Assembly: GCA_018715685.1 (NCBI GenBank)
Contig: DVLC01000055.1
Location: forward strand, 1 to 36,505
Direction: 5' to 3'
DNA length: 36,505 nucleotides
Source: Candidatus Cryptobacteroides merdipullorum
GTDB taxonomy: Bacteria > Bacteroidota > Bacteroidia > Bacteroidales > UBA932
In this document: piece by piece, positions 193 through 3,407 of the stretch
Layout of the letters: every line of letters starts with the position of its first letter
How positions within the stretch are numbered: position 1 is the first letter of the stretch
Made by a program: the position numbers and the translations under genes
The notes under the pieces: generated by a model
Database searches by the model: none
What the model was told of the DNA's origin: nothing
The model's input: only the letters and a program-made list of their open reading frames with translations

Positions 193-2158
193 TTAATAGA
201 ATCCTTCCGTATCGGTTTCATAATAGGCAACCTGGCTCTTGCCGACGATACCGCGCCTTTCCTTTCCGACAGCACGATACGTGTCCGACTTCGAGAAATA
301 CTTTATCAGTTTCCCGTCCTCTATCCTTACCCTCAGCGTCTTGCCGCCCATTTCCTCTGCATTGATTGCGAGAAAATCGTTGAGGACATCGCATATCACG
401 GCAGACGCCGACTTCCCCACTCTTATATCCGAGGCATACAGGATCTTGCCTTTCTCAATAGTCCAGGGCTGAAGCTCCGCCTTTTCGAAAGGCGTCTCTG
501 AAAGCCGGAACGCTGCCTCGAGACCGTCGTCAGAATTTCCGCCGATAAGATCTTCGTACTCTCTTTCCGTTATTATGCCGTGGTTATATATCAGGCCACC
601 GTCGTCGTGGACGCGATAGACTCCGACAATACAGTCCACGACCTTGTCGAGGTCGATTTCAAGGAAATGCAAGTCCGACTGTTCTCCAGTCCGCGTATAC
701 CAGCTGACAGGATATTCCTTCCTGAAGAAGAGTTCCTGTCTCTCTCCGCTACCGCGGGCATCATGATACCTGACATATTTCGCTGTTACGGGCAGGTTCA
801 GACCGAACTCCGGGAAATCTTCCGACTTGGTCTTATATGCAGGCGTCTTCCTGAACGCTTCGACAGGGGTGAGCATATAGAACCTGCATTCGGAATATCC
901 GCACGCACCCTCTCCCTGCCGCTCCAGGAGGCTTTCGAGGAAATGCAGGTCCTTGTATATCCTGAACATCTTACCCGTGAAGGCGTTATTGTCCTTGACA
1001 GACCTCAGCAGGATAGCGCAGGAACACAGGGGCTTTCCCGCCGCCTCGAATCCGCACTCTATATCCACTTTCTTCCGTCGGGCAGAATCGGGAAAGACAT
1101 CGGTCCGGACGAAAAATCCCGTCTCGCCGGATGCCTGCCGCCTGATGATATCGGCCAAAAACCGGCAGCACGAATCCCTGTCACAACCGTTCTCCACGGA
1201 TATCGTATCACGGAATATCCTCCACGATTCGTTCAGGATCTCTGACATTCTGGTCGGCAGCGAGCAGTCCGGGGAAGGTTCTGTGTCTTGGGCGGAATCA
1301 TCGTCACAGCCGGATCCGGACTGCTTCAGACCTTCATACCACCTGTCAAGATGCCCCTGCATCCACAATGCCCCGCCTACGGACTCCCCTGCCTCAGGCT
1401 TCGGATTGTCCTCCCCGTCAAACATGGATTCGCGGACAAAAAGAGGTAACGGAATCCTGTCGCCCTCATCGAGACCGACATCCACGGATATTCCGATGAT
1501 GAGCATACGGACTCCCATGGTTTCAAATGCTTCGACATACTGCACCGGAGACAGGAACTGATAGTCATCCTTGCAATCCTCACTCATCGAAAGCAACGCG
1601 GTCATTTCTGATGCGTCAAAAGAAATCGGAGATTCATCATGTTCGTCCTCACCAATCTTTGCCCTGAAATTGCTTGCGGCGTCGCCTTCCAGCCGGAAAG
1701 ACAGCCTCCCTGTATCCTCCACCTTACATTTGTACGCAAAGGCTGCAAGCCTGACATCGCAATACCTTCCGGGCCGGTATTTTTCCTTATTGATATGATA
1801 GTCGGTGGCAAAGAAACTTATTTCACGGCCTTCACCGAATTTCATGGTCACAACCGCCTCCTCATTGTTGTTCCATATCTCGATGTCGGTAATCAGTCCT
1901 TTCAGCAGTGCCCCCTCATCGGCAAACGGATATGCGGACACCAGTTCATTGGCACCGTTATCGTTGGTAAGGATAGTCATGTAGTGCACAGGACTTTCAG
2001 ATATCGAATCCAAAAGTTCAGATGTCGGGCCCAGAAGTGTGAGCACATCCTTTGCCCCCAGCACCCCGCTGTTCAGTACGATTTCGTGGAGAGCACCGGC
2101 GACGCTTTCCTGTCCCAGCACCGTTTCCCAATGGCTTCCGTGTCCCTGATCTTTCATG
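193..2158 (-). CDS. Uncharacterised multidomain protein; C-terminal half resembles a degenerate PD-(D/E)XK restriction-endonuclease-like domain. Likely start is MKDQGHG at 2158 rather than the ORF-track start at 2232
   Basis: 679 aa ORF in track; a TATTTTTG box at 2186-2193 (minus) lies inside the extended ORF, favouring the 2158 start; motif RRKKVDIECGFE...CSCAILLRSVK...RIYKDLHFLESL...RFYMLTP. Confidence 0.75.
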
Positions 2159-2185: not shown

Positions 2186-2193
2186 CAAAAATA
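2186..2193 (-). promoter_or_regulatory. Putative Bacteroidota -7 box (TATTTTTG) for the 654 aa gene
   Basis: Exact match to TAnnTTTG, about 28 nt upstream of the ATG at 2158; no convincing -33 TTTG seen. Confidence 0.45.
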
Positions 2194-2244
2194 CCTCACA
2201 GAGTGACATAGTACGGCACTGTAGCTGTTCATCTTTACCGACAG

Positions 2245-2317
2245 AAAAGCGTGGGCGATCCCGGCGGCTGTTGAGGTCCTGACAAAACCTTTGATGCACG
2301 AAAGGAGAGCCCACGCT
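2245..2317 (-). terminator. Terminator-like stem (AGCGTGGGC ... GCCCACGCT TTT) at the 3' end of the candidate RNA
   Basis: 9-bp perfect complement 2309-2317/2248-2256 with an internal CCTTT/AAAGG hairpin and T-run on the minus strand. Confidence 0.45.
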
Positions 2318-2394
2318 ACGCGTAAGCAGACCTCATCTTTTGCATCAATTTGAAATTGTCAGGTTCCAACAGGCAAGATGAAGCGTTGCGGTAT
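2245..2394 (-). ncRNA. Candidate structured non-coding RNA / leader RNA of about 150 nt
   Basis: Several long complementary segments: 2268-2273/2367-2372, 2278-2285/2356-2363, 2291-2298/2341-2348, plus a 9-bp stem 2248-2256/2309-2317 followed on the minus strand by TTT; upstream -7 box TATATTTG at 2401-2408. TSS is approximate. Confidence 0.55.
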
Positions 2395-2400
2395 TTATGT

Positions 2401-2408
2401 CAAATATA
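2401..2408 (-). promoter_or_regulatory. Putative -7 box TATATTTG upstream of the candidate RNA (a second TATATTTG lies at 2434-2441)
   Basis: Exact matches to TAnnTTTG on the minus strand. Confidence 0.4.
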
Positions 2409-2459: not shown

Positions 2460-3407
2460 TTACACTTCCCCGGCATCCGGAACATCGTTCCGTTCCAGAG
2501 CCTTTCTGTAGATTTCGCAGAGTTCCTGACGAAGATGTTCGGGCGCGATGACTACAAGGTCGCGGCTCTGCGACAGGAGTTCCTGCTTGAAGTCGTATGT
2601 AATCTTGATTCTCAGGCGGATGCGGAATTCCTCATCATTGTCGACCAGAGTCTCCTGCGACGAATGCAGGGGGAAGGCCTCGTTATACCTGCCGGCCTTG
2701 GGAGAAAACGACAGTATGACCTCCTCGACCGGAAGTTCTTCCTTGGAATAGGCGCCTATGACATCCCTGAATTCCTTTTCCGGATCAATCGCGGGATTCC
2801 TCGCGAAACGCTTCTCCGTGACAATCAGGTCCCTGATGCGGTCGAGTCCCCAGCTCTTGATTTCGCCGGCATGGCGGACGTTCTCCCCTATCTCCACAGC
2901 CAGCAGATACCACCTTCCCCTGCCCTCCTTCAGGGCATACGGCATCACGCTGCGGAAACTCGAGACCGAATTGTTGAACTTCACATAGGTGAACTCCACT
3001 ATCAGATTGCGCCTTATCGCATGAATCAGCGGAGACAGATTCCCCGTACCGCGAGGCTTGCGCTTTTCCGGAAACACAAACGCTGACAATTCCTCACGGG
3101 CGCGAAGCGACGTCAGCAGGTCATACTGCTCCAGTATTCTTTCTATGTCCGAAAACTGGTCTTCGTCTTCCGGTATATAGTAGCCCTTCTCCGTCCGCGA
3201 ATACTCTATGCTGATATTCATCCCTGACCGGATTTCCTGCAGGTCACGCAGAATCGTCCTGCGGGAGACTCCGACATCGCCGGTGTCGTCATAATACGCC
3301 AGGCCGTCATCGACTTTGCGTATCAGTTCCTGAAGCGAAATGTAGCGGTTGTTCCGTATTATCCTGATAATCAACAGATACCGCCGAATGTACCCTTGTT
3401 TTGACAT
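2460..3407 (-). CDS. WYL domain-containing transcriptional regulator with N-terminal HTH
   Basis: 315 aa ORF; N-terminal HTH-like YISLQELIRKV...VSRRTILRDLQEIR and WYL-type core (LIHAIRRNLIVEFTYVKFNN...RWYLLAVE). Confidence 0.85.
   Translation of the reverse strand: MSKQGYIRRYLLIIRIIRNNRYISLQELIRKVDDGLAYYDDTGDVGVSRRTILRDLQEIRSGMNISIEYSRTEKGYYIPEDEDQFSDIERILEQYDLLTSLRAREELSAFVFPEKRKPRGTGNLSPLIHAIRRNLIVEFTYVKFNNSVSSFRSVMPYALKEGRGRWYLLAVEIGENVRHAGEIKSWGLDRIRDLIVTEKRFARNPAIDPEKEFRDVIGAYSKEELPVEEVILSFSPKAGRYNEAFPLHSSQETLVDNDEEFRIRLRIKITYDFKQELLSQSRDLVVIAPEHLRQELCEIYRKALERNDVPDAGEV

Follow-up and report, generated by a model that had tools for sequence, protein, structure and literature searches.

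The window, by which we mean the whole 36,505-nucleotide stretch of Candidatus Cryptobacteroides merdipullorum DNA that was analysed (contig DVLC01000055.1), carries on its minus strand a gene for a WYL/WCX regulator (Pfam WYL, 3.5e-10, and WCX, 1.3e-9; PADLOC WYL, 4.4e-26), an intergenic region that holds the RNA element described here, and a gene for a protein of 654 amino acids (Table 1). This length, which the first-pass annotation had also given, is likelier than the 679 amino acids that an alternative start would yield, since relatives of the gene keep MKDQGHGSHWET at the start at 2157. No family match was found for the 654-aa protein, and its predicted fold had a mean pLDDT of 55.8 with no PDB match at E <= 0.001. 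It shares a domain of ~200 amino acids, repeated in some of the proteins, with the downstream proteins of two other WYL-type loci (L012, 4468-5157, and L059, 188-868). The domain contains the motif VDIxCGF...AIELKF in the relatives and AILLRS in the window protein; its resemblance to a PD-(D/E)XK nuclease motif is a guess, to which the fold search lent no support. No tRNA was found anywhere in the window.

Table 1. The RNA element, its parts, and the flanking features in the window (positions are those of the window)
Feature	Sequence	Position	Strand	Remark
WYL/WCX regulator gene		2460..3407	-	Upstream of the element, same strand
Promoter-like box	TATATTTG	2401..2408	-	Box start to element start, 12 nt
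RNA element		2242..2396	-	155 nt; extent from covariance models R1 and R2
PK1 5' strand	TCATCTT	2375..2381	-	Covaries with 2333-2339
P1 5' strand	CTGTTGG	2366..2372	-	98.5% of cells paired
P2 5' strand	CCTGACAA	2356..2363	-	Six pairs 100% standard
P3 5' strand	TTGATGCA	2341..2348	-	93% of cells paired
PK1 3' strand	AAGATGA	2333..2339	-	Within the apical loop
S1, AH 5' strand	GCTTACGC	2320..2327	-	AH is part of the minimum free energy fold
S2, shared strand	AGCGTGGGC	2309..2317	-	Partner is S1 (AH, 2309-2316) or S3 (PK2)
P3 3' strand	TGCATCAA	2291..2298	-	Partner of P3 5' strand
P2 3' strand	TTGTCAGG	2278..2285	-	Partner of P2 5' strand
P1 3' strand	TCAACAG	2268..2274	-	Partner of P1 5' strand
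S3, PK2 3' strand	GCCCACGCT	2248..2256	-	Immediately 5' of the T-run
T-run		2245..2248	-	4 T in the window copy
Promoter-like box of the downstream gene	TATTTTTG	2186..2193	-	Between element and gene
654-aa gene		193..2157	-	Downstream; alternative start at 2232 gives 679 aa

The first-pass annotation had read the minus strand of the intergenic region as a structured RNA, and its fold bears this out. The minimum free energy of 2240-2400 (minus strand) was -52.3 kcal/mol, compared with a mean of -39.5 kcal/mol for shuffled sequences, and none of 200 dinucleotide shuffles folded as well (z -3.45). The three nested stems that had been proposed (P1, 2367-2372 with 2268-2273; P2, 2356-2363 with 2278-2285; P3, 2341-2348 with 2291-2298) are present, as are the stem that crosses them (2309-2317 with 2248-2256, here called PK2), which is followed by TTT, and both promoter-like boxes. 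A small CCTTT/AAAGG hairpin that had also been listed lies outside the conserved structure. Two further features were recognized, namely a second pseudoknot, PK1 (2375-2381 with 2333-2339), and an apical hairpin, AH (2320-2327 with 2309-2316). In the window copy, AH as a hairpin has an energy of -9.6 kcal/mol, and the PK2 strands have one of -21.4 kcal/mol as a free duplex, a value that takes no account of the energy needed for loop closure. Given the 12-nt spacing of the TATATTTG box, transcription is predicted to start close to the 5' end of the RNA, and a start at the 5' strand of PK1 would be the simplest reading.

The family to which the element belongs was defined by two covariance models, R1, which contains no pseudoknots, and R2, which was trained on matches to R1. 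The window copy scored 178 bits under R1, of which it is a training sequence, and 132 bits under R2. In divergent copies from the same genus (L057, L058, and L061), the stem sequences differ and the pairing is retained. Across an alignment of 11 sequences, 37 pairs were 96.0% standard, compared with 38-45% for slid controls; 16 of the 37 had changed on both sides, and five helices covaried, including PK1 and PK2. In PK1, the pair swaps among relatives include TTATTCGG/CCGGATAA and TGTTCT/AGAACA.

The same picture emerged from 78 distinct sequences, in which P1, P2, P3, PK1, and PK2 together had a covariation of 0.663 (slid controls, at most 0.100) and 88.0% paired cells (slid controls, 38-43%), whilst P1, P2, P3, and AH together had a covariation of 0.779 and 93.6% paired cells. 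The outer pairs of P1 occur as six pair types, the pairs of P2 as up to four types each, and most pairs of P3 as four to six. The core pairs of PK2 are 93-100% standard, with compensatory changes, and PK1 is less well paired, at 64-67%, partly from register shifts. AH is paired in 84-93% of cells, partly by conserved U-G pairs, which argues that the element acts as RNA rather than DNA. The 78-sequence alignments were fitted to P1-P3 by covariance model and so favour those stems; PK1, PK2, and AH are the more independent evidence, because they are absent from R1. Complementarity was also scored in free register against between-locus shuffles, which leave in the kinship among copies, including copies of one genome. 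None of 1000 shuffles did as well for PK1 (z 6.8), for PK2b (ACTTAT/ATAAGT; z 8.6), or for P4, a helix of AGTYCC with GGRACT 3' of the T-run (z 7.8-9.0). The sequences of P1, P2, and P3 vary almost freely among copies, and the conserved letters sit in the joints, with GAAA before P2 and AATTT after P2 on the 5' side, while on the 3' side GG follows P3 and ACCTC follows P2.

The window's element is a single member of a large family of structured RNAs in Bacteroidota. The family is built around a P1-P2-P3 hairpin whose internal loops are conserved. One pseudoknot, PK1, joins the 5' tail to the apical loop; another, PK2, joins the apical loop to the 3' end; and AH shares a strand with PK2. The first-pass annotation had proposed mutually exclusive folds, and this proposal stood in part. 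An exclusive pair does exist, in that AH (S1:S2) and PK2 (S2:S3) share one strand and, by their predicted pairings, cannot both form fully. The particular switch that had been envisaged, with the nested stems exchanging for the crossing one, was rejected, as P1-P3 and both pseudoknots all covary and can coexist. Outside the window, P4, the helix beyond the T-run, competes with PK2 for S3; the window copy has at best a weak P4. PK1 (AGCGTT with AACGCT) extends to the region beside S1, and overlaps S1 in many copies.

The first-pass annotation had also allowed for a known Bacteroidales RNA family, and had named an Rfam match, alongside a lack of covariation, as what would speak against its proposal. 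The stems covary, and no family among the 4227 models of Rfam 15 reached its gathering threshold anywhere in the window; a permissive scan of 1900-2800 at E <= 10 gave nothing relevant, and in the relatives no family came near its gathering score over the element. A known RNA family was thus ruled out by cmscan of the window and its relatives. In the literature searched, we did not find a description of this RNA, though a fragment published outside Rfam may exist.

Three described RNAs were considered individually. DUF805b (RF02914; in clan CL00115 with DUF805, RF03081) is likewise a multicopy motif, cis-regulatory in Bacteroidetes and present in the same genomes, and it lies directly downstream of several element copies, before the start codon (in L125 above the gathering score; in L121, L114, L120, and L126 below it; and also in L142, L143, and L144). 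However, it is a 35-nt motif with one small stem and a 3' AAAAGAGUAGG, does not overlap the element, and matched neither the window region nor the window's genome (G000). In turn, L137-L141, L145-L150, L155, and L156 have DUF805b sites at which the element was not found, and identity was rejected in favour of an adjacent, separate motif. Element-free DUF805b motifs occur several per contig (L137, 930-2345; L139, 1069-2756; L140, 998-2002; L141, 698-1085), spaced about 280 to 1100 nt. The 6S RNA of Bacteroidales (Bacteroidales-1, RF01693) is of similar length, a long imperfect hairpin, and a candidate stand-alone RNA. It was rejected too, with no match in the window or in G000, and in G278 its weak match on contig 7 is a separate locus from the elements on contigs 3 and 10. 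FopS is a multicopy, trans-acting sRNA family of Bacteroides with canonical promoters and a length of about 65-70 nt (PMC11697453). The element shares with FopS its status as a multicopy family in Bacteroidales, but it has two pseudoknots, is mostly a leader, and at about 155 nt is too long to be FopS.

We counted the family by large covariance searches under strict filters and with a capped number of candidates, so that the counts from these searches are lower bounds; owing to a shortened calibration, the E-values are approximate. R1 matched at least 76 of 247 Bacteroidales genomes and at least 62 of 173 genera (E <= 0.1), and R2 at least 74 of 293 Bacteroidia genomes (E <= 0.001) and, phylum-wide, at least 20 of 199 genomes, four of them beyond the class. 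Full rescoring of seven genomes gave 10-22 copies in each, and in well-assembled genomes the copies are dispersed rather than arrayed. Many copies, among them L068, L069, L073, L075, L082, L083, L099, and L106, are 100-400 nt away from the end of a contig, which suggests a repeated sequence nearby. Within the window's genus, 9 of 400 genomes carry a full-length, near-identical copy, and most of those tested lack a close one. Most of the weak DNA matches among L038-L056 resemble chance and were set aside. A blastn search of plasmids and phages with the window sequence returned chance matches only; with canonical copies as query, it returned one plasmid (Rhizosphaericola) and one gut phage-like scaffold. 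On the latter, which is unannotated, 5.2 kb long, and of human faecal origin (L176; MT838511), the copy lies at 1858-2055 and has a longer apical insertion. In G074, the 3' part of the element alone (L060, 2780-2842) precedes a relative of the window's 654-aa gene, and we read it as a decayed or recombined copy.

Of 73 copies, 68 are followed by a gene on their own strand. The start codons lie mostly 35-135 nt past the element, with 50-56 nt the commonest spacing. Among the 98 copies that are not of the WYL type, 82 have a TAnnTTTG box within 110 nt upstream (6.6 +/- 2.5 expected in shuffles), and 73 have TTTTTT exactly at the 3' end (0-6 of 98 in neighbouring stretches). Such a box between element and gene was found in five of these 98 copies, and in all seven of the WYL type. 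At the level of the family, the same-strand genes and upstream boxes are those of a cis-regulatory leader, and we infer that most copies are mRNA leaders; the window copy, with its second promoter-like box before the gene, fits this description less clearly. At L151 (255-634), two elements stand in tandem, 50 nt apart, ahead of one gene, and another close pair, ~120 nt apart, was seen on contig 103 of G869.

The downstream genes are a mixed set. By a simple hydrophobicity rule, 50 of 95 downstream proteins have a signal-like N-terminus, versus 73 of 265 proteins elsewhere in the same loci. The families represented, with one to four members each, include proteins with T9SS sorting tails, BspA repeats, adenine methyltransferases, Zorya-like proteins, response regulators, and sigma factors, and the products also include lipoproteins, restriction-modification proteins, and T9SS cargo. 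Genes as varied as these do not point to any one metabolite as the sensed signal.

The best explanation of the findings as a whole, to which we assign a probability of roughly 60%, is a leader that attenuates transcription, with the window copy probably a separate RNA. The leader would act as a three-state attenuator built from the exclusive helices AH, PK2, and P4, one of which lies directly before the U-run. Pairing of S2 with S3 (PK2) would place a terminator-like structure immediately before the U-run, and RNA polymerase would stop. When AH holds S2, S3 would be left to form P4 with S4, on the far side of the U-run, and transcription would continue. A ligand or protein that stabilizes the hairpin core would favour PK2, and hence shut-off; since PK1 overlaps AH in many copies, it is suggested that the folded core together with PK1 removes AH and favours PK2.

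Strand-exchange logic and a U-run are common to the element and to the attenuators and riboswitches that use exclusive hairpins, but here the terminator-like helix is a pseudoknot rather than a local hairpin, and the downstream genes have no common pathway. It would be unusual for a terminator to have its 5' arm some 60-100 nt upstream and a folded domain in between, as one formed by PK2 would. The conserved internal loops (GAAA/ACCUC and AAUUU/GGG) are compatible with a riboswitch. A bolder proposal is a new, Bacteroidota-wide riboswitch class, in which a double-pseudoknot aptamer for a signalling molecule would act through a pseudoknot terminator on many unlinked surface, defence, and regulatory genes, and in which the WYL branch would be a leader turned free-standing small RNA. 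We regard this proposal as tentative, and would sooner doubt it than defend it.

That the family might instead consist throughout of stand-alone, trans-acting small RNAs, with the downstream genes mere neighbours, seems unlikely to us. WYL-type copies do have their own promoter box and a T-run end, the next sizeable gene is more than 300 nt away at L057 and L061, and multicopy sRNA families such as FopS are known in Bacteroides (PMC11697453). Against this stand the 68 of 73 same-strand genes at short spacing, the 93 of 98 non-WYL copies without a promoter box before the gene, and P4, which pairs S3 with sequence past the T-run. 

The first-pass annotation had suggested a stand-alone ncRNA at this locus; the idea is plausible for the WYL-linked subclade only, the family at large being mostly mRNA leader. 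In all seven WYL-type copies, one promoter box precedes the element by 12-17 nt, another precedes the gene, and the T-run is of four, and the shortness of this run and the weak P4 argue against attenuation in these copies. With a promoter at the 5' end of the RNA and a separate box for the gene, the window copy is probably a stand-alone RNA of ~155 nt ending near the T-run, and may act in connection with the WYL regulator and the neighbouring gene.

A leader might also act on translation or mRNA stability, with the U-run serving as a protein or ribosome binding tract. The element's place in the 5' UTR, close to the start codon, would suit such a role, as would the known cis-regulatory motif DUF805b directly behind some copies. 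We nonetheless think it improbable, as the T-run follows a GC-rich strand precisely, like that of an intrinsic terminator, and the pairings S1:S2, S2:S3, and S3:S4 are exclusive, both of which favour attenuation.

A close relative of the WYL gene is present at 25 loci, and at ten of these the element lies downstream of it, at 93-96% nucleotide identity by BLAST. When WYL-linked relatives were aligned globally, identity was 93.5-97.4% for the element, 76-84% for the WYL gene, and 42-95% for the downstream gene, so that in every pair but one the element is more strongly conserved than either flank. L011 and L012 fall in one genome bin, which implies that the module was duplicated. The 93-97% conservation might reflect the recent spread of one WYL-RNA-gene cassette rather than RNA function, and the swapping of downstream genes beside a near-constant element could be taken that way. 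We give this little credence, considering the lower identity of the WYL gene on the other flank and the substitutions in the wider family, which preserve pairs.

Finally, a DNA element, whether a recombination site or a miniature mobile element (attC-like or MITE), that spreads accessory genes would account for the many copies per genome, often near contig ends and beside very diverse accessory genes, and for those on one plasmid and one phage-like scaffold, but it is highly improbable, given P1-P3 sequences that are nearly free to differ while pairing is kept (unlike recent transposition), conserved AH U-G pairs, upstream promoter boxes, and dispersed copies in well-assembled genomes. Integron attC sites are imperfect hairpins, multicopy, and situated beside accessory genes; the element is unlike them in its two pseudoknots, conserved U-G pairs, own promoters, and dispersed single copies.

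The attenuating leader that we favour belongs to an RNA family of about 155-160 nt that has two pseudoknots and covaries extensively. The family lacks an Rfam 15 entry, reaches 22 copies in a single genome, and is carried by roughly a quarter to a third of the sampled Bacteroidales and Bacteroidia genomes. Its exclusive pairings, precise U-run, and leader position open the mechanism to direct tests, and the WYL branch is an example of a leader that has apparently turned into an independent RNA. If the element is regulatory, it would control many accessory genes, including those for secreted and T9SS proteins, lipoproteins, restriction-modification, and regulators, in the Bacteroidota, a phylum that is central to the gut microbiome and in which few regulatory RNAs are understood.
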